In this document: positions 21,839-40,024 of the stretch, piece after piece
Layout: each line of letters opens with the position of its first letter
Numbering within the stretch: position 1 is the stretch's first letter
Assembly: GCA_039704465.1 (NCBI GenBank)
Contig: JASFAU010000019.1
Coordinates: 248,001 to 312,000 of the forward strand
From: Plasmodiophora brassicae
Lineage: Eukaryota > Endomyxa > Phytomyxea > Plasmodiophorida > Plasmodiophoridae
Direction of reading: 5' to 3'
DNA: 64,000 bases
Translations under genes and position numbers: made by a program
Notes under the pieces: generated by a model
What the model was told of the DNA's origin: nothing
Databases searched by the model: none
What the model saw: the letters and a program-made list of their open reading frames with translations, nothing else

Positions 21839-22035
21839 TGTTCATCCAGAGTACCAGTACTCAGATGATGCTGCTCAGATGCTGCTGCCACCCGGTCACA
21901 TGATCATGACCGTACTCGACCCCGCAGCGGCCCTTGCTGTGACGATCCTGTCCAAATACATCAGTTCGTTATATCACCAGGCGCCGACTCTTGCGACCGA
22001 CCGCCCCCGTAGTGGGCAGCGGCGGCGTTAGCACA
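21839..22035 (+). repeat. 5' LTR of chromovirus copy 1
   Basis: TG...CA-bounded 197-bp terminal repeat, identical by eye to 26977-27173 and 63592-63788. Preceded by the target-site copy CGCAG at 21834-21838. Confidence 0.95.
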
Positions 22036-22078
22036 GAAGCTTCTTGCGCAAAGAGCCCCAAGCAAACGAACTCACTTA

Positions 22079-25078
22079 ATGGCAGGAGGTGGCCGCAGAG
22101 CGCCCGTTCGTCTACAGATGGAGGACGACGCCAGGACCAACTCCGACGCCGAGGCCAAGGAGCATGAATCGTCGACAGATGACGAAATCGATCGAGGGCT
22201 TCAGTCAACAAACCTGCACGGTAAGAGCCCGATCTTTATGCCTTTGAAACCGCCCATCCTACGTACCCTGAGCCTTACGGCCAAGGACGGAATTAACGAT
22301 TTCCTCAAGAAATATAGGAAACACGTCGAGATCGTTAACGAGCGCCGACTGATCTACAAGGAGGATATTCATCCGCCAACGGTGAAGTCATGCATTACCG
22401 AGGACGTCCTCAGAGGGATGTCGAAATATCGCCTACGTCAACCCGCCAGCACGATCACGGATGGCGACATCATGAGCTACTTGAGGTCAGTCCAACGCAG
22501 GGAGGCTGATGTCGAGAGTTCGACAGACATCAAGGCGCTTCTCACGAAGACAGTGGTCATGAACCTGTCAATCAAGAGTATTGAGGAACGTGTCACGTCT
22601 TTCTTCGCCAAGTTCGATGAGCTAATCGACGACTATGGGCTACAAGACACATACGCCAAAGGAACGAAAGGAACCAAGCGCAAGATCAAGGTATTACGCG
22701 GAGGTATCCGTCCCACTGACCTTGCGGTTCTAGTCGAACGCGCGATCGAGTTCGGAGGGTGCAGGGACGCTGAGAAGGACGAGCTCAAATTCTTCGACCT
22801 CGTCGACCGTCTTGCCAAAGAGCAGGACAAACACTTCCGGCTGCAAGCTGAGAAGAAGAAGTCTCCAGCGCAGACCATGTCCCCACCTGCAGGTAAGAAA
22901 GGTAAGGACGTTGTTGCTCCGAATAGGAATGGCGGCAAGCATCCGACAAATCCGATCGGACTGAAGACAGCTCAATCGTCCACATCGCAAACGAAAGACG
23001 AATCGAGGGACATCCCCGAGCACATCCGAAAACGTTTCGAAGGTAAGGATCCTCCAAAGGCAGGTTGCCTAATCTGCAAGGAGCAGCACTGGGTCCAAGT
23101 GTGCCCGAAGGCAACTCAAGGAGAACGCAAAGCTGCCATTGAAAAGTTCCAGAAAGAGCGCAAAGAGAAGGAGGAGAGTAAGGGCAACGCAGACACGGCA
23201 AAGCGCATGGGCCCGCCGTCGCCGTCAACACCGTCCCCTATGAGACTTCGCTTCCAGAACTCGCTCGACCTTCCATTCGAAGCCGATAGTGGTGCGACGA
23301 AGACCGTCATTTCGCAATCGCAACTGCTACGGATTCAAGCCATCCAGCATGTCCCAGTCAAAGTGTTCGACCATCCAACGGAGGCGAAACTTGCAACGAT
23401 CGGGGCTACGACAACAATTGTCGCCACAGCGATCGTGGACATCACCATTGTCCCACCTTCGCATGGCAAACCTGCACATCTACGCGGGCGGGAAATCAAC
23501 GTATGTCGCGAAGACCTATCTGATGACATTGTCCTTTTAGGAGCCCCGGAACTGGACGCGTTGGGTATCAATCCAGCTACACAACTGAAGGAGATGTTAA
23601 TCGAGGCAAATGGTCCTATCATCATCGAAGCGGATCCGACCCCGGAACGTCACGCCCCAGGTGGTCAAGGGATCACGATGAGAGCGGTAAGACACCCGGA
23701 GGTAAGTGGAACAACTCGCGATCATGAGCCCCAATTGGACACCAATGATCCGGGTGACGACTATGATGTCGAAATCGGAGAACACTCCGATACAGACGTG
23801 GACAGGGCAATAGACCGGATGATACAACGTGCAACTGACTCCGGTTTCCCTAACGATCAAGTCCCGCGTCTACGCACAACTGTCAATCGACACAAAGACA
23901 TATGGCGAACGAAGCTTGGCCGTGATCCACCTGCGAAAGTAAGTCCACTGAAACTACACTTCAAAGCAGATGCTCGTCCTGTTCGTTGCCGAACACGAAG
24001 GTATACCCTCGAACATCAAAAATTCATGGATGATCACGTAGGAACCTTGGCGGAAAACGATTTTGTGTACCGCAATCCGCACAGCAGGTACGCGTCGCCG
24101 TGTCTGGTCGTCGACAAGAAGGACACGGAGGTTCGCGGCCATCGGCTGACCGTCGACATCATCAATGAAGCCGTCAACAAACAGACCGAACGCATTGCAT
24201 GGCCGATGCCTCACATCGACATCATCCTGACCTACCTACGTTCCGCGACCATCTTCATGCTGTTCGATGCCTTTAAAGGCTATTGGCAATTTCCGTTGCA
24301 CCCTGATTCGCAGGAGGCCTGCTCGTTCATGACGCACATCGCCACGTTTACACCCAGGCGCATCATCCAGGGAATCGCTGATTGCGTGTTTGCGTTCCAG
24401 GCGGGAATGCAACAGGTGTTGGGGAAACTTCTATATATCTGCGCCCTACTCTGGATCGACGATATCCTCGGCTACGTATCTGGATTCGGAGCCTACATGG
24501 ACACACTCGAATCTCTTCTCAACGCTTTCGACGAGTTTGGAGTTAAACTCAACCCTGATCGCTGCCAGTTATATCTCACTTCAGTGACATGGTGCGGTCG
24601 CGTTATATCCGCTGATGGAGTGTCGTTCGATCGCTCGTATCTCAACGCCTTGCACGATCTATCAACTCCTATCACGGCTGCTGATCTCCAACAGTTCCTC
24701 TCGGGCCTCAATTGGGTCCGTTCTGTTATCCCTCAATTCGCGGCACATGTTCATCCGCTACAGGATCTACTTCTGTCCGCTTCTCGTTCTGTCAGCAGTC
24801 TGAAGAAATCACACCTACGTCGAGTTCGTTTAGCCGACATCGGCTGGACCACTGACCATCTCACCAGTTTCAATTCTCTGAAGCATCGACTATCGGAGGC
24901 CATGACGCTGGCGCACCCCAAGGACGAATGGATCATGTGTCTCTTTCCGGATGCGAGTGACCGTTTCTGGTCTGTTTTCCTGTCGCAGATCCCTCCGGAA
25001 GATATTGATCTCCCGTACGGTGAGCAACACCACGAACCTTTGTCGTTCATCTCGGGACATTCCGTGGTTCTCAATTGA
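22079..25078 (+). pseudogene. gag-pol 5' part: zinc knuckle, protease, reverse transcriptase
   Basis: 999-codon frame starting 43 nt after the LTR. Gag carries a variant zinc knuckle CLICKEQHWVQVC (CX2CX3HX4C). Protease has ADSGAT. Reverse transcriptase shows HRLTVDIINEAVN, then FDAFKGYWQFPLH, and WIDDILGY in the catalytic position, where YxDD or FxDD is usual. The frame ends at a TGA just before the RNase H core; the expected continuation is one frame away, so a single-base deletion near 25060 is likely. Gag and pol sit in one frame with no ribosomal frameshift needed, as in some chromoviruses. Confidence 0.9.
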
Positions 25079-26967
25079 AGTGGGCGACCATTGAGAAGGA
25101 GGCCTACGCCATCATTGAAGGCTGCTATCGCCTCAGACACTTCATCTCTATGTCAAAGCTGGCACTTCGAATCTTCACAGACCACCGTAATTTGGTTTTC
25201 ATTCTGAACCCAGCCTCGGTTGCACGAATTAGTCGGACGACCGGCGATCGCTTGGAGCGCTGGCGACTTCAGATTATCGACCTAGATTTTCACATTGAGC
25301 ACATTGCTGGGGAGGACAACGTTTGGGCCGACCTCGCCACGCGGTGGGGCGTCGCCCTGCAACCACTCTCCTCATTTTCCCTCCATCGTTCCGTTCTATT
25401 CGTCATATGGCAATTAATCTTGACTTCGACGATTACAAGATGACCGATGAGTTTATCTGGCCGTCTGTCGACGAGATTAGTAACGCTCAGACCGACTACA
25501 TTCGCCAACACGACCTATCTGCCGTTTCCGATATTCTCCAACTCGAAGGGGACATGTCTCTCCACCTTAGCCCGGAATCTGGCTGGCGTACTCCAGACAA
25601 TCAACTCTGGGTACCATCACATGCACTGCAGCTACGCATCGCAGTGATTTCACATATGGGATGTCTGGTCATCAACCTGCTGCATCGACTATTTCGAGCA
25701 TCGCACAACTCTTCTGGTGGCCTGATCTGGATTCCTTTGTTCGTGCATTTGTGGACAAATGCTTACACTGCCTACGCAACAAAGATTCGATGATTCCCCG
25801 ACCTTTTGGCACGGCTATGCATGCGGACAAGCCCAATAAGGTCATCCACTATGACTTTCTGTTCTTATCCAAACCTCGTCCAGGCGATTCTCATCAACTT
25901 CGTTATGTTCTGGTTCTGAAGGACGACGCCACGGCATTCGTCGAGTTAATTCCTTGTCAATTCGCGGATCACAGCGTTGTCGCCGAATCTCTTCTGGATT
26001 GGTTCAAACGTTTCGGCATTGTTTTCCAACATGTCTCTGACCGCGGCACACACTTCAAAAACGCGGTTATCGCCGAGCTTAATAGCCGGTTACACTGCAA
26101 CCATCATTTCACAACTGCCTACACACCTTGGGCGAACGGCACGGTTGAGGTTGTCAACAGCGGCTTCTCTTTCTGCTGAAGTCCCTCCTCTCCGAGCTAA
26201 ATCTTCCATTCCAGGATTGGCCGTATGTCCTTCCGCTGATCAACATGACGGTAAATCACACTGTTCGATCAAGTGTGGGCTACGCGCCTGTCACGATGTT
26301 TACGGGTTTGCCACCCTCGACACCTATCTCGATTATCTTCAACAAACGCATCGACGCGGTTATCGACGTACCGTTGACCCCTGACCGTCTAAAGGAAATG
26401 ACGACGGAACTTATCGATTCTCTCGAGGACATGCACAAAGCAGTGGCACGTACACGCACCCATCTACGTGATCTCAAGCAACGCGCCCGGCGTCGCCGAC
26501 GCAATGTTCGCGAGATCAACTTCACGACGGGCGACTATGTTCTCGTGGCCAACCATGGCAAGCACTCCAAGTCCGAGTACAACTGGACTGGACCTGCCCA
26601 GATTATCGACACCAGCAACGACTGGGTGTATCGAGTTCGAGATCTCTTGACTGATCGTATCTCAGATGTACACGCCCAGCGCTTAATGTTCTATGCAGAT
26701 GCGCACTTGAATGTCACCTCTTCCCTGAAGCACAACATCGCGCTCACCGGCGTGGCTTACCAAGTCAACGCAGTCGAGGACATTCGAGTCAACTCTACGT
26801 CAGGTGACACTGAACTACTGATCAACTGGATCGGATTCGATGCCACCGACAATTCATGGGAACCTTACTCGGTCATGGCGGCCGATGTTCCTGATATCGT
26901 CAGGGCCTTCCTCGAACGACAAGCCGAAGGAGACCCGCTCTGCTCACGACTGTTAGCAGATTTCTAA
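25075..26967 (+). pseudogene. pol 3' part in four frames: RNase H, integrase, chromodomain
   Basis: Four overlapping open stretches continue pol: 25075-25443 (RNase H, IEKEAYAI), 25323-25793, 25661-26179 (integrase core with HYDFLFL, VSDRG and ANGTVEVVN supplying D, D and E) and 26245-26967 (integrase C-terminus and chromodomain, LLINWIGFDATDNSWEPYS). Each junction looks like a single-base indel, near 25060, 25330-25410, 25660 and 26160. As written this copy cannot make a full Pol protein. Whether the breaks are biological or sequencing errors cannot be told from the sequence. Confidence 0.88.
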
Positions 26968-26976
26968 CACGGGGAG

Positions 26977-27173
26977 TGTTCATCCAGAGTACCAGTACTC
27001 AGATGATGCTGCTCAGATGCTGCTGCCACCCGGTCACATGATCATGACCGTACTCGACCCCGCAGCGGCCCTTGCTGTGACGATCCTGTCCAAATACATC
27101 AGTTCGTTATATCACCAGGCGCCGACTCTTGCGACCGACCGCCCCCGTAGTGGGCAGCGGCGGCGTTAGCACA
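26977..27173 (+). repeat. 3' LTR of chromovirus copy 1
   Basis: Identical to the 5' LTR and followed at once by the target-site copy CGCAG (27174-27178). Confidence 0.95.
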
Positions 27174-29840: not shown

Positions 29841-30086
29841 CTAAGGTTCGTTCGTAGACTAATTTGGTCTCCCTCACTGTAGTCATGCACCATAAACATT
29901 TGTGGGAATAAATACTTTCTTGATCACCGCCAGTCGCCAGGGGATCACCACCCCTGATTGCAGCACGTCGCGACTTTCGTTCTTCCCATTGTTTGTCAAT
30001 CTGCAATGACGTCAGCCACGTCGACGCCCCGACGCGCGCCCGCACGGCAGGGTGCATGCATCTGGACAGCACATAGTTCCCCACGT

Positions 30087-30173
30087 TGTCACGATCAGGC
30101 AAGCTGATGCAACGAACGCTTTGACGGACTGGCGAAGTCCGTCGCGGGGTTCGGGATTTATTCAGTTATCACA
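30087..30173 (-). repeat. 3' LTR (87 bp) of minus-strand chromovirus
   Basis: Identical to 35526-35612. The other target copy CACGT lies at 30082-30086. A purine-rich tract directly after the integrase stop codon (about 30174-30187) is the likely plus-strand primer. Confidence 0.94.
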
Positions 30174-30186
30174 GAATAGTCCTCTT

Positions 30187-31860
30187 CTAGCGATTGGGTC
30201 TCCGCCGGTTTCGGGAGCGAGGGCCAGGTTTATCGGGATATCGAGCATGAAATTCAGCAATCGCTTGGTCCAGGCCTCCTGTCCCATGGAGATTGCCCGC
30301 GGGTTCCCAGGTGCGATCGGACGGGGAGTATCCTTCCCAATCTATGAGATATTGCAACCGCCCCGACCGGTATCGGGAATCCAAGATCGACTTAACGATG
30401 AACAGGGGCTGGTCGTCATCTTCCAATACAATGGGCGGCGGCGGTGGCTGTTGGCGATGTGGAAGGACATTAGGCGTATACGGTTCCAGCTGTGACACAT
30501 GGAAGACGTTATGTAGGCGCGAGGTAGGAGGCAGCTTCACTTCGTATGCGACGGGGTTAACTGTGCGAACAACTTGGAAGGGTCCCAGCAGACGGTCATC
30601 CAGTTTCCCGCACGGGCGGCCAGTCGATAAGGTTCCACGCCTGAGCATGACGAGATCGCCCACCTGCAGTGGTGGTGGTTCGCGGCGACGGCGATCCGCA
30701 GAGCGCTTCATAGCGTCGACCGCCCGTTGCAGTTGGCCCTTCAAGTAGCGGCGAACCTTCTCAAGGAATTCGGCACGCTCATCGGCGGCTGGGTTACAGA
30801 CTTGGCCATTCCTGGGTCGAGGCTCCGTCACCCTTGGATGAAACCCGTAGTTGGCGAAAAACGGCGACATGCCGGTGGCCGAATGGTCGGCGTTGTTGTA
30901 CGCGAACTCGGCCATAGGCAGAAGTTGCAGCCAGTCGTCCTGCATGTAGCTAACATAGCAGCGTAAGTATTGTTCGAGGATCTGGTTCACGCGTTCCGTC
31001 TGGCCGTCGGATTCCGGGTGCCGGGATGAAGACAAGTTCCGTTGGATACCAAGACGGTCCAGTAAGTGCTTCCAGAAGGCCGACACGAACTGGGGCCCCC
31101 GGTCGGAGACGATGTCGTCCGGTAGGCCATGCAGGCGGAATATCTGCTGCAAAAACAGGTCGGACAGCTCGACCGCTGTGAGGGTCTCCTTGCACGGAAT
31201 GAAGTGGGCCATTTTCGAAAACCGGTCGACGACGACGAGGACCGAATCGTAGCCGTCGGAAACTGGAAGCTTGACAATTAGATCCATTGAGATCGATGAC
31301 CACAGAGAACTCGGCAAGGGAAGAGGCAGCAGGAGCCCGGACGGTTTGTGGCGCGGAGACTTGCTTCTCTGACAAATGTCGCAGGATGAGACGTACAGTT
31401 TGACGAAGGCCCTCATGCCAGGCCACCAAAATTCACGCTGGACAAGCCCAAGCGTTTTGCGGATACCAAAGTGACCAGAGGCCCTATTATCGTGGAGTTG
31501 CCGGAGGATCTCGATCTTGCATTCGTCTCCGGAGACGACCAAGGAGCGTCCTTTGTACAGGAGGCCGTCTCTCAGGCAATACTTCCTACCTTGAGGTCGG
31601 TCGAGCAGACCGGCAATCTTGGCGACGAACGGATCACTCGCTTGGTGTCGTCGGATACGGTCTAGGAGAGGCTCGGACGGAGCCGCCTCCGCGTGGACGG
31701 TGAACGCGTCCACCACGGGGGACGGAACTAGGCGATGAAGCGGGAGCAGTTGGAGAGATTGTTGCAGGATGCCTTCTTCAGACGCCGTCGGGACGTACTC
31801 CGGGCGGCGCGTCAAGGCGTCAGGTTTACCGTGCAAGCGGCCCGGTCGGTGCTGAATCAT
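30187..31860 (-). CDS. Integrase-chromodomain ORF of minus-strand chromovirus
   Basis: An open 557-codon frame with the HHCC domain ([14 protein letters not shown], then CDICQRSK), the DDE core ([27 protein letters not shown]), a GPF-type C-terminal domain ([20 protein letters not shown]) and a chromodomain ([20 protein letters not shown]). It has no ATG at the frame start, so it would be expressed as the end of a Pol polyprotein. The chromodomain normally steers insertion into specific chromatin. Confidence 0.93.
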
Positions 31861-31873
31861 GAAGTCGAAGCCG

Positions 31874-33222
31874 CTAAGCAGTTGGGACCATCGGATTTGG
31901 CGCGGATTGCTTGTGGGTCGTCATGAAGTACTTGAGGTTGCGGTGGTCGCTGTGCACAAGTGTCTGATGTTCATCCGAATCCAGGAACTGGCGCCATTTC
32001 TCGAAGGACGCAACAACGGCCAGGAGCTCTTTGTCGTAGACCGCATATCGGATCTCAGCGGGGTCCAGTTTCCTCGAAAAGAACGCCAGAGGGTGTAAGT
32101 CCCCGTCACGGCCCCGTTGTGAGAGGACCATGGCAATGGCGAAGTCGGAGGCATCCGTTTCAATCTCGCACGGCACGCTAGGATCGAAGTGGGCGAGGAC
32201 CGGAGCGCGTGTGAACGCGCTCTTCAGAGTTGCGAAGGCGGTCGAAGCAGTCTCGTTCCAGATAAATTCGGTTTCCCCGCGAGTAAGGTTCGTCAAGGGA
32301 AGTGCGATCTCCGCGAAATGCGGGATGAACTTTCGGTAGAAGTTGGCGAACCCAAGGAAGACTTGCAGCCCGTGGAGGTCACGCGGCGGGGCCCACGCGA
32401 GTATTGTGTCTACTCGGCTGGGATCCAACCGGAGGCCGTCCTTGGACACTAAGTAGCCGAGGAATTCGACCTCCGGTGCGTCGAACAAGCACTTAGACAG
32501 TTTGGCCGTCAGGCGCGCGGAGCGTAGACGTTCGAGCACCAAACGCACGTGCTGTTCATGTTCCTCAGCATTCTTGGAGAAAATCAAGATGTCGTCAAGG
32601 TAAACAACAACGAAACGGTCAATGAAGTCGCTGAATGTCTCGTTCATGAAGGCTTGAAAGGATGCCGGGGCGTTGGCAAGCCCGAAGGGCATAACCAGGT
32701 ACTCGAACAATCCGTACGGTGTCCGGAATGCTGTCTTCCATTCGTCACCTTCGCGAATGCGGATCTGGTTGTACGCACTTCGAAGGTCGATCTTGAGAAG
32801 ACCGTTGCTTGACCGAGTGTCGAAAGCAGCTGGTCGATGAGCGGAAGTGGGTAACGGTTCTTCACGGTGACCGAGTTCAGGCCTCGGTAATCAACGCAAA
32901 GCCGTAACGAACCATCCTTCTTCTTCGCGAAAAGGATCGGCGCGCCGGCAGATGAACGCGACGGCCGTATGAAGTTCGACTGGAGGTTATCTTCCAAATA
33001 CTTCTTGAGGGCTACCTGTTCGCGGGGAGACAAGCCGTAGAGGCGACAGAATGGAGGCTCCGTCCCCGGTTTCAGGTCGATCGAGCAGTCAGAGGCGCGG
33101 TGCGGCGGTAAGGATGTGGCGGTGGCCTCGTCGAACACGTCGGCAAAATCCTGGTATTTTTCAGTATCTTCGTCTGCTCTGACTCGGTGTCCTCGGTCCA
33201 CGTATAATGGATGAGGTAGCAC
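31874..33222 (-). pseudogene. Reverse transcriptase and RNase H of minus-strand chromovirus (frameshifted)
   Basis: RT fingers and palm ([20 protein letters not shown]) occupy 33222-32760. The frame breaks near 32800 and resumes at 32710 with [19 protein letters not shown] and the catalytic VVYLDDILIFSK, followed by the RNase H region ETDASDFAIAMVLSQRG to 31874. Motifs are canonical, so damage is limited to frame breaks. Upstream, 33972-33222 is more degenerate. Confidence 0.9.
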
Positions 33223-33971
33223 TGAGCGTCGTCCATGAGTGCGTCCAGGAACGGTTCGGCGTCGACTAGATGGATGGGAACGTTGGCCGCCAGAGGTTCT
33301 TCAGTGCTTGGTGCCGGCAAGGGAACGTGGTCGATCCGCGTCCCGTCGCCTTGATTAGAATCCGTGGGCCGTACGTCGCACGACGACTGTGGAGCATCTC
33401 CGGCTAGAACGTCAGGGCCGGCGTTCGGCGGGGCGATCGGACAGGCGTCGTCAGATGACGTGTTTAGATAAGCACGAAGGTCGACGCGTGCGGGTTCGCG
33501 GCACATAGTGACGAAGGCAAGCGCCCAAGCGGCCGCCACGATGGATGAGCACATGAACAGGCTGACCACCTGGCGTGCCCTGGAACCGTCGTCCAAACGA
33601 CAATCTGGTAGACGTCGACCGGCTCCCCGCCTGTGTCGCTGCTCCCGCGCCGGCGACGTTAGCCCTGTCTGGTCGGGGAACGATTCGAGCTCGAGGCAGT
33701 TCGCAGGGGTGTTACCGGTGTCAGCCGTTTCCAGGTCGCCAGCGGCTTTGTCCTGAGTCTCAATTGCGGCTGTCGCCAGGACTCTGCCACCCGGCGTTCA
33801 TCGTTGGCCGCAGGCGGCAATGGTGTCACGATCAGGTCTTGTGCGGAAGTTGGATCTGGATGTTGTTTTGTGTTAACAGGCGCCTGGGCGATGAGCGGAG
33901 CTGCACTAGAGGCGTCCAGGGCCGGATAACGGCAGTCGTCGTGTGGCGCAGCCACGCTTGCCTCGGTTGTC

Positions 33972-35340
33972 TCAGCTTCTGCATGGCCAGGATCCGCCAC
34001 AGTTGTCGGCGTTGACGTTGACGGCGAGGGGGCACTGGCGCGGCGAGACGAGCCGCCGGCGCCAATCCACATCTGGATTAGTCTGGGCTAGCCAGGGCAG
34101 ACCCAGGATGACGGGATAGGTCGGCGAATTGATCAGATTCAGGACGATCTCACACGAGAACTGGGCGTCCACCGTCGTTCTCAACGGCTGAGTCTCCTGT
34201 GATATAGGTGCGAGCTGGCGGCCGTCGACAACGCGGACAGGTATCGGACGATGCGTCGGGCGGGTAGGCAGAACGTGGAGCCGCGCGAAGGACCAGTCGA
34301 TAAAGTTGCTAGTCGCGCCACAGTCGATCAAGGCCGTTGTCGAGATACTTTCGGACCCGGTGTATATGGTCATCGGAAGTACGAGATGCGGGACAGAGCG
34401 GGCGTGGAGAAACATGAGATCGCTTATTTGAACAGGGTCGGGTTCGGATGACAATGCAGAGTTTACTGGGTGGCCGGCGAACCCGTTGGCGGTCACCCTT
34501 GGACATTTCCCGGTGCAACCGGCGGCCGTTTCGGGCAATCCGCGATCCGGTGGCCATCTTCTTTGCAGTAGAAGCAGAGGCCGTCCTTGCGGGCACGCTC
34601 ACGGGCATCGGCGGCGACAACCTTCGGAACGGGGTAGCGCGGGCAGAGGTGTTTCGCCTTTTGACCATCTCGTCGAAGTCGGTGATCATGTCCTCGAACA
34701 GTTTTTCCGACAAGGCAGTATGCAGCGACTTCCGGAACTTCGACGCGCGCCGGGCCGAACTCATCTTGAAGGTTGCATCCGCGCGCTGAAGCGCTTGATA
34801 CAAATTGTTGAACATCAACACATGCTCTTCGACAGGTTCGGTCTGGGTGAGGTTGTCGAAGCACTCCTCCAGCTGTTCGAACGTCGGCACCGGAAACCAT
34901 TTTGACATCGCGTAGGACAGGTCGGCCATCGTGGCGTCGTCCGGCAGCCCGAAATAGACTTCCAACGCCGGGCCTTCCAGCGATCTAAGAAGGGCGCTGT
35001 GCGCCGCCGGCGGAAGGCGGGTCGTCGATGACGGGAGCTGCAGCGTCCTTGACAGACACTTCAGAAAGTCGCGGGAGTTCGTGGAACTGTCGCGAATACG
35101 CCCGGTAAAGCGGGGCAGGTGGATCTGGTGGTCGACGATGTGTCGGGATGTCGGCGACGGCTCGCTCGGCGGCATCTTGTCGGGCAGCGAGCGATTTATC
35201 GCTGTCCCAACGGCATCTTCGACCCGGTCGGCCACTACGGACTGCATAGCTTTCAGCTGGTGCAGCATGTCGCTGACAGTGAGCGTGAGGTCCCGCACTT
35301 GATCTGCCAGTGCGGCGATCTGGTCCTCGCTCGTTGTCAT
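33972..35340 (-). pseudogene. gag and protease of minus-strand chromovirus (frameshifted)
   Basis: Gag starts at the ATG at 35340 (MTTSEDQIAALADQVRDLTL) with a helical N-terminus. The CCHC knuckle CFYCKEDGHRIADC lies in a different frame (34900-34493), and the protease with LIDCGATSNFID in a third (34538-33972). At least two single-base breaks are needed to connect them. Confidence 0.88.
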
Positions 35341-35380
35341 CGCGAACACACCGGTAGACGGACAGGAAACGGGACGGCAG

Positions 35381-35490
35381 GAACGGAGCGGGCGGAACGG
35401 AGCGGGCGGAACGGAGCGGGCGGAACGGAGCGGGCGGAACGGAGCGGGCGGAACGGAGCGGGCGGAACGGAGCGGGCGGAACGGGGCGGG
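35381..35490. repeat. 14-bp tandem repeat in the retroelement leader
   Basis: About eight copies of GAACGGAGCGGGCG, the last ones slightly changed, lying between the PBS and gag. A single degenerate copy with the same flanks occurs at 38855-38880 in a remnant of the same family, so the expansion happened in this lineage. Confidence 0.9.
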
Positions 35491-35513
35491 CGGGACGGCG
35501 GTGACCGTTGGTT

Positions 35514-35525
35514 AGTCCGTCAAAA
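35514..35525 (-). promoter_or_regulatory. Candidate self-complementary primer-binding site
   Basis: In element sense the 12 nt directly after the 5' LTR are TTTTGACGGACT. Eleven of them are the exact complement of AGTCCGTCAAA inside the LTR (plus-strand 35559-35569), and the twelfth pair is G-U. No tRNA-type TGG start follows the LTR. This matches the logic of Tf1-type self-priming, where the PBS pairs with the 5' end of the element's own RNA. It needs the transcript to start near 35569. Confidence 0.6.
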
Positions 35526-35612
35526 TGTCACGATCAGGCAAGCTGATGCAACGAACGCTTTGACGGACTGGCGAAGTCCGTCGCGGGGTTCGGGATTTAT
35601 TCAGTTATCACA
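35526..35612 (-). repeat. 5' LTR (87 bp) of minus-strand chromovirus
   Basis: In element sense starts TGTGATAACTG and ends GATCGTGACA. Contains AATAAA (plus-strand 35596-35601) and a perfect 8-bp stem (GACGGACT / AGTCCGTC). Followed by target copy CACGT at 35613-35617. Confidence 0.94.
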
Positions 35613-35758
35613 CACGTCCTCCCGACTCGCGTCCAGGCGTCGGACCAGCGACAATATGGCTCCGTTGATCAGCCGGGTCTTCACGTACCTGCCTCGCGAT
35701 CTTTCCACGGATCCTCCGCGCACTCCTTGAGGTCATCGATCAGCTTCTTGACGGGTAA

Positions 35759-37929: not shown

Positions 37930-39290
37930 CCCGGCCCGGAGGCGCTCGCCGTCCCCTCGATCGCGCACCGGCGCCTCGCCCGTCCCGCTTGCCAGCTCGC
38001 CGCTGCTGCATACCGCACGCGTACCGCCGGCCCGTGCATCGCTGCGGTCTGGGCCCTGGCGCCCGCCGCCCGCAGCTCCTCCTTCAGGCCCGCGATCTCT
38101 GCCTCCAGCCGAGCCCTGGCCGTGGCTTCTGGCGCCGCGTTCCCTCGGCCCACCGGAGCTCGGCTCATGACCTCTTGCGCCGCCGTTTGCTCCTTGACGT
38201 CCACGTCCTTCTCGCGCCCGACAAGACGCTGTCGAACGAGCCGTCGGCGACACCCCGGCACATCGTCGACCACCCGATCCACTTGCCCCGATTTACGGGG
38301 CGTATCCGCGACGTCTGTTCCCCCAATTCACGTGACTTTCTGCAAGGCCTGTCAAGAGGACGCTGCAGGTTCCGTCGTCGGCGACCCGACACGCGTCGTC
38401 AGGCAGCCCGAAATAGACTTCCAACGCCGGGCCTTCCAGCGAGTTCAGAAGGGCGCGCTGTGCGCGCCGCCGGCGGGAGTCAGGTCGCCAACGACGATCG
38501 GAACCTGCAGCGGCATTTCAGAAAGTCACGTGAATTGGTGGAACAGTTGCGGATACGCCCGGTAAATCGGGGCAAGTGGATCGGGTGGTCGACGATGTGT
38601 CGGGGTGTCGCCGACGGCTCGTTCGACAGCGTCGACTCTTCGGGCTAGCGCTCGATTTATCGCTGTCCCCACGACATCTTCGACCCCGTCGGCCACGACA
38701 GACTGCATTGCTTTCAGCTGGTGAAGGATGTCGTTGATAGTGAGCGTGACGTCCCGGACATGCTGGGACAGCGCGGCGATCTGGTCCTCGCGGGTTGACA
38801 TCGCGAATACGGCCAGTTGGCAGACAGGGACGGCAGGCGGGACGGGCAGACAGAGACGGAACGAGGCGGGCGGAACGGCGACGACTGCTGTTAGCCCGTC
38901 AACATGTCACGATCAGTCATGCCTTCCAAGTTGTTCGCACCGTTAACCCTGTCGCCTACGAAGTGAAACTGCCTCCTACCTCGCGTCTACATAACGTGGT
39001 CCATGTGTCACAACTGGAACCGTATTAATGTCCTTCCGTGCGCGACGTCGCCTCCAGCCGCCACCACCGCCTATTGTATTGGAAAATGATGACCAGCGTC
39101 CATGTTCATTTTTCGATCCTTCATTCCCGATACCTGTCGGGGCGGCTGCGGTACCTCATAGACTGGGAAGGATACTCCTCGTCCGACCGCACCAGGGAAC
39201 CCGCGGGCAACCTCCATGGGACTGGGGGCTAGACTAAAAGCTATTGCTGAATTTCATGCTCGGTACCCCGATAGACCCGGTCAAAGCGCC
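37930..39290. mobile_element. Rearranged remnants of the short-LTR chromovirus family
   Basis: Pieces of one family in mixed orientation: gag on the plus strand (about 38226-38400), gag start on the minus strand (38801-38526, MSTREDQIAALSQHVRDVTL), leader and 14-bp unit remnant (38820-38905), a 14-nt LTR end (about 38903-38916), then integrase C-terminus ([20 protein letters not shown]) and chromodomain on the plus strand (38924-39290). An intact element would have all pieces in one orientation, so deletion and inversion have occurred. Confidence 0.8.
38228..38633. repeat. Inverted gag duplication (arms about 113 bp)
   Basis: The segment 38228-38340 and the reverse complement of 38519-38633 are the same gag stretch (landmark GTCGACCACCCGATCCACTT), with a spacer of about 180 bp. 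The arms have a few differences. Confidence 0.8.
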
Positions 39291-39337: not shown

Positions 39338-40024
39338 ATCGTCACTGGCTCTTATCCATGGCCCCAAGCTAACCTGCACGCCTCTTAAGTCGTCGCAACG
39401 GATCCCCGGAAAGAGTGTATCGCCGGCCGTGTGGGCGGCAAACGTCGTCGTCGCTGTCGTGCCCGACAAGAAGCAGGGAAATCCCGTTACTCGACGGAAG
39501 CAACTGGAACGATACCGCGGTTTCGAATAGCTTCGAAATGTGCTGAAGAACACGATCTGGGATATTGAGTAGCCCGTGGACGCTCAGCTGAGGAAACGGA
39601 TCATCGTAACTCGTGTCGACTGGTGAACCAGGACGCGCATCCACAGGGAGCAGATCGGCCACGTTTTGGACTGGGTCATCATCAGTCGACACGAGTTACG
39701 ATGATCCGTTTCCGCAGCTGAGCGTCCACGGGCTACTCAATATCCCACATCGTGTTCTTCTCCACATTGCGAAGCTATTCGAAACTGCGGTATCGTTCCA
39801 GTTGCTTCCTTCGAGTAACGGGATTTCCCTGCTTCTTGTCGGGCACGGCAACGACGACGACGTTTGCCGCGCGCGCCAGTCTGTCCAATACCCTGCCTAG
39901 CTCATGGAGGCGCAGGTCCTGCCCACACGGCCGGCGAGACACTCTTTCCGGGGATCCGCTGCGACGACTTAAGAGGCGTGCAGGTTAGCTTGGGGCCATG
40001 GATAAGGTCCAAATGACGATGGTC
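39338..40024. repeat. Large inverted repeat (arms about 283 and 340 bp, 64-bp spacer)
   Basis: Left arm 39338-39620 and right arm 39685-40024 meet at GTCGAC...GTCGAC. The left arm lacks about 60 bp present in the right. Both match the dispersed repeat at 29281-29640. The arms have many substitutions, so the inversion is not recent or both arms came from different copies. Confidence 0.9.

Follow-up and report, generated by a model that had tools for sequence, protein, structure and literature searches.

The 64,000-nucleotide (nt) window analysed here, positions 248,001 to 312,000 of contig JASFAU010000019.1 of the Plasmodiophora brassicae assembly GCA_039704465.1, contains a long terminal repeat (LTR) retrotransposon whose predicted primer binding site (PBS) is complementary to a segment of its own LTR. 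This element, referred to as family A, occupies 5,526 bp of the minus strand (30087-35612). It presents paired LTRs that start with TG and end with CA, a 5-bp target duplication and, on the minus strand, the pol order protease, reverse transcriptase (RT), RNase H, integrase and C-terminal chromodomain (Chromo, E 2.8e-12). Because the chromodomain follows the integrase in the Pfam results, the element is a chromovirus (Ty3/gypsy), as a preliminary description of this DNA had stated. The best solved-structure match of the RT was the Ty3 RT (4ol8, E 2e-44). For the integrase region, the best protein match was a partial Plasmodiophora brassicae protein, 100% identical throughout the 72% of the query that it covered, and the organisms named among the matches listed (120 of 3,735) were Plasmodiophora, Planoprotostelium, Tilletia, Dendrobates and Anolis. 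The pol domains of the window copy (30187-35349, minus strand) lie in separate frames, with 338 amino acids for RT and 577 for integrase, and a copy on C8 has the same two frame lengths. A scan of viral contigs for relatives of the element found none. Its features, in window positions, are:

30087..35612, minus strand: LTR retrotransposon, chromovirus, family A, 5,526 bp (identical 87-bp LTRs, target-site duplication ACGTG, protein domains)
35613..35617, minus strand: target-site duplication ACGTG, 5′ side
35526..35612, minus strand: 5′ LTR, 87 bp
35596..35601, minus strand: AATAAA, with 26 nt between it and the primer segment
35575..35582, minus strand: palindrome arm GACGGACT in the unique 3′ region (U3), complementary to the primer segment (arm/primer covariation across families)
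35559..35569, minus strand: predicted primer segment AGTCCGTCAAA, which would be the start of the repeated region (R) if the RNA starts at 35569 (LTR complement, covariation)
35533..35547, minus strand: predicted stem-loop ATCAG-CTTGC-CTGAT in the unique 5′ region (U5), atop the primer:PBS helix (RNA fold)
35514..35525, minus strand: PBS TTTTGACGGACT, a 2-nt spacer TT plus the 10-nt core TTGACGGACT (LTR complement, covariation)
34309..35349, minus strand: gag-like open frame, 346 amino acids, without Pfam match
34493-34984, minus strand: frame overlapping the gag-like frame, in which CFYCKEDGHRIADC reads by eye as a CCHC-like knuckle
33972..34538, minus strand: aspartyl protease (RVP_2; Pfam, E 4e-06)
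31874..32710, minus strand: reverse transcriptase (C-terminal part) and RNase H (Pfam)
30187..31860, minus strand: integrase (H2C2, rve, SH3_Tf2-1) followed by the chromodomain (Pfam)
30174..30184, minus strand: putative polypurine tract, the purine-rich GAGGACTATTC before the 3′ LTR (sequence)
30087..30173, minus strand: 3′ LTR, 87 bp, identical to the 5′ LTR
30082..30086, minus strand: target-site duplication ACGTG, 3′ side

The PBS directly adjoins the 5′ LTR and pairs with AGTCCGTCAAA, LTR positions 44-54, by 11 contiguous Watson-Crick pairs; a twelfth pair fails (G against A). The preliminary description had pointed to this exact complement of 11 bases directly after the 87-bp LTR and placed its LTR partner 27 nt after AATAAA. 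Both statements were accurate, the A at 35569 being the 27th base. AATAAA could be a poly(A) signal or, judging from its spacing, a TATA-like element. A site behind the LTR that is complementary to an LTR segment, in a leader without a tRNA site, is the arrangement expected of self-priming elements. When the LTR was resampled from its own dinucleotides, 53 out of 200,000 sequences gave a complement of at least 11 nt starting no more than 5 nt from the LTR end. Among 8,283 other 20-mers of the window, none reached 11 nt and the best value, 10 nt, occurred five times. A chance complement was rejected on these two controls together with the covariation between families presented below.

Priming by a tRNA or a tRNA fragment, the usual rule among LTR elements, would make the LTR match a coincidence. 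No TGG occurred in the first 22 bases after the LTR of the window element, in agreement with the preliminary description, and the six family leaders compared had none in the 19 bases next to the LTR; a TGG was found at bases 20-22 after the LTR, within CCATGG, in the family D leader that was folded. We then searched the whole assembled genome (25.3 Mb, 21 contigs) for exact copies of AGTCCGTCAAAA, the 12-mer complementary to the PBS. Of the 26 copies found, 25 were element sites and the last (C2:1907443) lay inside a solo LTR of family B, described below, where no tRNA was found. None of the copies was therefore in a tRNA. The tRNAs listed for the genome are a minimum set, with 63 out of 482 first-look candidates scored. 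A tRNA primer would also leave unexplained that each site follows the LTR of its own family. Accordingly tRNA priming was rejected, and we regard it as hardly credible.

The LTR and leader search gave at least 42 matches genome-wide. In families A and B, nineteen 5′-to-3′ LTR pairs were found by LTR-start patterns that allowed few mismatches (L025 and L030, with altered LTR starts, were left out). Eighteen of them had no mismatch, indicating that copying was recent, and the other, L018, had a one-base deletion that shifted the count. Matching 5-bp duplications flanked 16 of the 19 pairs. L018 failed through its one-base shift, and L013 and L029 carried an extra outer LTR with the target duplication at its outer end. 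These two are tandem-LTR insertions with the second LTR at the 5′ end, joined by TTTC in L013 (C13:98-104 kb) and by TTT in L029 (C10:603-611 kb). The L013 junction, CA-TTTC-TG, fits two extra bases per cDNA end, a string that can also be split otherwise; the L029 junction, CA-TTT-TG, does not fit such an end. Four of the 19 pairs, two each in L022 and L027, resemble copies of one duplicated segment. A segment of ~3.15 kb with a family B element was doubled in tandem in both L022 (C18) and L027 (C13), with the same duplication CGTCC, and both doubled segments lay ~20 kb from a contig end.

Family B (L022-L033, for example L023:251-4007) is a non-autonomous relative of family A. It has the same R, U5 and site as A, and differs in U3 and in the sequence after the site. 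The interior of L023 consists of 25 tandem units of 147 bp, and BLAST between family B copies revealed a common repeat register in the other six compared. BLAST of family B interiors against the family A interior gave no match. Copies with LTR pairs ranged from 1.7 to 4.8 kb, apart from L029 with 7.7 kb, which included ~5.3 kb of other sequence. Primer, U5 and site were kept letter for letter in nearly all family B copies. Sharing only R, U5 and the site would fit a common priming requirement, and recent recombination between A and B would look alike. As the stretch hardly varies within A and B, copies of family A alone could not test covariation.

Covariation was evident between families. Six LTR families of the genome (A/B, C, D, E, F and G) keep the primer/PBS pairing while the letters change. 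The LTRs are ~87-147 bp long across families, and RT identity to A was 66-67% for C, 67-70% for D, 75% for E and 73% for G. LTR pairs were verified for A, for B and for every other family except F. Self-BLAST of L034 and L035 revealed no LTR pair, and the E and D pairs came from other copies; none was found for L061/L062 either. The primer segments and the reverse-complemented sites read:

Families A and B: primer AGTCCGTCAA, site AGTCCGTCAA
Families C and E: primer AGTCGGTCAA, site AGTCGGTCAA
Family D: primer AGTCGGTCAA, site AGTCGGTCAA or GGTCGGTCAA
Family F: primer AGACGGTTAA, site AGACGGTTAA
Family G: primer AGTCGGTTAA, site GGTCGGTTAA

A pattern for the site motif matched the genome 72 times, against a single match for the reversed control pattern. 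Sixty-six of these matches were read (six family E matches were left out), and 63 had a recognisable primer segment, which was searched for independently of the letters of each site, though with a pattern drawn from families already seen. The three excluded were L037, which is truncated, L086, whose primer holds an insert, and L087, which lacks the motif and was presumed to be a chance match. Two family G leaders, which lie outside the site-motif pattern, completed a set of 65. L043 (mutated site) and L054 (truncated LTR) stand outside this set, and C18:103019 and C19:625968, unmatched by the pattern, were left out of it. Pairing was perfect over 10 nt in 52 of the 65 leaders, nine differed at position 1 only and four had other mismatches. 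Positions 2-10 pair in the common form of all six families, and position 1 pairs in A, C, E, F and some D copies. The eleventh pair is confined to family A, and a 2-nt spacer follows the terminal CA of the LTR in all six. The conserved unit is thus likely a primer of ~10 nt plus the 2-nt spacer and not strictly the 11 nt of Tf1. The 11-nt length that the preliminary description likened to Tf1 holds for family A; across families, the shared pairing comprises positions 2-10.

The covariation was quantified in an alignment of 14 distinct leaders and 10 pairs, a chosen set from which the four mismatched leaders and most near-identical copies were left out. Of its 140 cells, 98.6% were paired, and three of the 10 primer/PBS pairs had changed on both sides. 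The covariation score was 0.215 compared to 0.070 after shuffling, and none of 500 shuffles scored as high. When the register was slid by one column, pairing fell to 49% and 37%, and slides of 1-3 columns left zero pairs changed on both sides. When sites were swapped among the six families, the true pairing (59 out of 66 matches) was never beaten; the same value was reached by 6 of the 720 orders, namely the true one and those that exchange sites among C, D and E. These results bear out the check on covariation proposed in the preliminary description: LTR segment and PBS change together between families.

The preliminary description had also cautioned that the LTR contains an 8-bp palindrome, GACGGACT-TCGCC-AGTCCGTC, one arm of which resembles the PBS. 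The palindrome is real, but the 10-nt PBS core of the window element matched the arm at 8 out of 10 positions and the reverse complement of the primer at all 10. Arm and primer also covary, with 100% of 48 cells paired, both sides changed in three of six pairs and a score above all 500 shuffles, though on two weaker measures 33 and 58 of 500 shuffles reached the observed value. The PBS could thus be a by-product, in which a U3/R hairpin or a DNA palindrome (a promoter or a protein-binding site) is what selection maintains and the sequence behind the LTR resembles the arm by descent. In that case, with pairing playing no role, the PBS copy should have drifted. We found instead that the PBS follows the primer more closely than it follows the arm in all six family leaders compared. 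Out of 10 positions, PBS and primer matched at 10 in families A, C, E and F and at 9 in D and G, whereas PBS and arm matched at 8 in A and E and at 7 in C, D, F and G. Moreover, primer positions 9-10 pair with the PBS in 14 of 14 leaders, and the arm lacks both partners save for one base in E. The palindrome as sole cause was consequently judged unlikely, and we consider this explanation quite improbable. The primer segment thus has two conserved partners, the PBS and the U3 palindrome arm.

RNA folding was examined next. In RNAs starting at the primer, the predicted pair probability of primer and PBS at positions 2-10 was 0.66-1.0 in families A, C, D, E and G. Including the arm in the transcript lowered this predicted pairing to 0.01 or less in C and D, and left it in place in A, E and G. 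A GTCAG/CTGAC stem lies in family C at the place corresponding to the U5 stem-loop of the window element. Between AATAAA and the primer lie 23-26 nt in the A, C, D, E and G leaders inspected; AATAAA is absent from the family F leader inspected. From AATAAA ending at this distance upstream of the primer, we infer that transcription starts in the palindrome loop. This spacing and the modelled folds suggest that the complementary segment may be the very 5′ end of the RNA. Such a start would free the 5′ R copy and lock the 3′ R copy. The palindrome might in this way tell the R copies apart, the 5′ copy, which lacks the arm, being available to the PBS, the 3′ copy being held in a hairpin, and the 5′ copy alone priming; we put this forward as a possible but doubtful model. 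For the window element, on which the 3′-end fold was modelled with the poly(A) site assumed at four places, the U3 arm was predicted to lock the 3′ R copy, with pair probabilities of 0.89-1.0.

This prediction also bears on which molecule primes. R is present at both RNA ends, and another R copy, on a separate RNA or at the 3′ end of the genome RNA, could pair with the PBS in place of the 5′ end in cis; by sequence, cis and trans are inseparable. The predicted locking of the 3′ copy (in the window element only) argues against this, as does the precedent of Tf1, which primes from its RNA 5′ end (PMC7175516). We hold priming by another R copy to be very improbable.

Tf1-type self-priming is, with high probability, the best explanation for the PBS of the window element, in view of the LTR complement, the compensatory changes between families and the lack of any tRNA carrying the 12-mer. 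The self-priming proposed in the preliminary description thus gained support from both the covariation and the tRNA checks, and the six LTR families of the genome would share the design. Transcription would start at or near 35569, giving an RNA that begins with AGTCCGTCAA. Its 5′ end would then fold back onto the 10-nt PBS core and enclose the U5 stem-loop, a pairing supported by covariation within a predicted fold. As in Tf1, RNase H would cut the RNA behind the paired segment and free a short RNA primer. Minus-strand DNA would begin two nucleotides outside the LTR, where the 2-nt spacer is seen, and the ordinary LTR pathway would follow.

Several observations weigh against this interpretation. 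The three compensated columns may represent only three evolutionary events. Two secondary shuffle measures were weak, being equalled or exceeded in 24 and 383 of 500 shuffles, which is unsurprising since only three columns covary. The family G primer matches its own site no better than those of C, E and F (9/11 each), and the family A primer matches the C and E sites at 10 of 11 positions, compared to 11 for its own. Position 1 is unpaired in seven family D leaders and in both family G leaders. In the folded family F leader the predicted pair probability of the site is only ~0.2, or 0.4 once the arm is included, owing to a second site copy behind the first. A hairpin constraint alone would also predict the covariation of the primer, though not that of the PBS. 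Finally, transcript start, primer cleavage and strong-stop DNA are steps that we infer from the DNA.

Other features of the window and of the families were recorded. A second recent Ty3-type element lies at 21839-27173 (plus strand), with identical 197-bp LTRs and the target duplication CGCAG. As the sole control element of another kind, it showed neither a TGG nor an LTR complement of at least 7 nt in the first 30 nt after its LTR (GAAGCTTCTTGCGC...). A degraded relative of the LTR/PBS junction, TGTTGACGGGCT, was found at window positions 38890-38922 (C19:286893, outside the 65 leaders), next to a sequence that repeats the gag region of the family A element, and long inverted repeats occupy 39346-40011 (192 nt at 95% and 91 nt at 96%). 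At the polypurine position, AGGGGACTAT was present in family B and in the E and G pairs read, and absent from the C and D pairs read. RT lay within an open frame of 1,658 or 1,347 amino acids in one copy each of families C and E. The repeat content of P. brassicae is low, with published values of 5.4% (PMC4471660) and, for isolates Pb3 and Pb6, less than 2% (PMC4815078).

The closest parallel is Tf1 of Schizosaccharomyces pombe. Like the families described here, Tf1 belongs to Ty3/gypsy, and it carries a chromodomain. The integrase of the window element matches the Pfam domain SH3_Tf2-1. Going by the title of a 1998 study of Lin and Levin, a U5-IR stem-loop is reportedly needed in Tf1, and a similar stem-loop is predicted in the window element. 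In contrast to Tf1, the families here pair positions 2-10 (usually 1-10) behind a 2-nt spacer, their LTRs are only ~87-147 bp long, their host belongs to Rhizaria (Endomyxa, Phytomyxea), and their RNA start and cleavage are predicted. That the primer forms one arm of a conserved palindrome may be a further difference.

Self-priming, with a primer of 11 nt, has been shown for Tf1 (PMC7175516). It has also been suggested for further Tf1/sushi elements of fungi and vertebrates, for Tj1, for the Tcn1 clade in plants and for the TAR/copia lineage (PMC7175516, PMC4600332, PMC6317226). For Tj1 of Schizosaccharomyces japonicus, the proposal likewise came from complementarity between the PBS and the 5′ end of the RNA (PMC4600332); this element is fungal and active in a transposition assay, whereas the families here are known from sequence alone. 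Most plant members of the Tcn1 clade (fungi, mosses, club-mosses) are, by published description, predicted to self-prime (PMC6317226), although one club-moss element is described as without evidence for either priming mode (PMC2864245). The Skipper elements of dictyostelids (Amoebozoa) are also protist chromoviruses, most of them without a TGG site, but they have a polypyrimidine tract and no complementary LTR segment (PMC5006619).

The preliminary description had expected a protist-like genome to widen the range of self-priming. Rhizaria would indeed be a new lineage, whereas the mechanism had already been proposed beyond fungi, in vertebrate Tf1/sushi elements and in the moss and club-moss Tcn1 clade (PMC6317226). 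No report of self-priming in Rhizaria was found among the open-licence PMC papers listed. As far as these papers reach, the families would represent a known mechanism in a new host lineage, and the two-partner primer could be the part of the finding that is new. Altogether, these results would add Rhizaria to the lineages for which self-priming independent of tRNA is predicted, with support from compensatory changes inside one genome and not from one lucky complement. They bear on the question of whether self-priming is an old trait of chromoviruses or one that horizontal transfer has spread, and the six families may serve as a natural set for asking which primer length is required and how the R copies are told apart.
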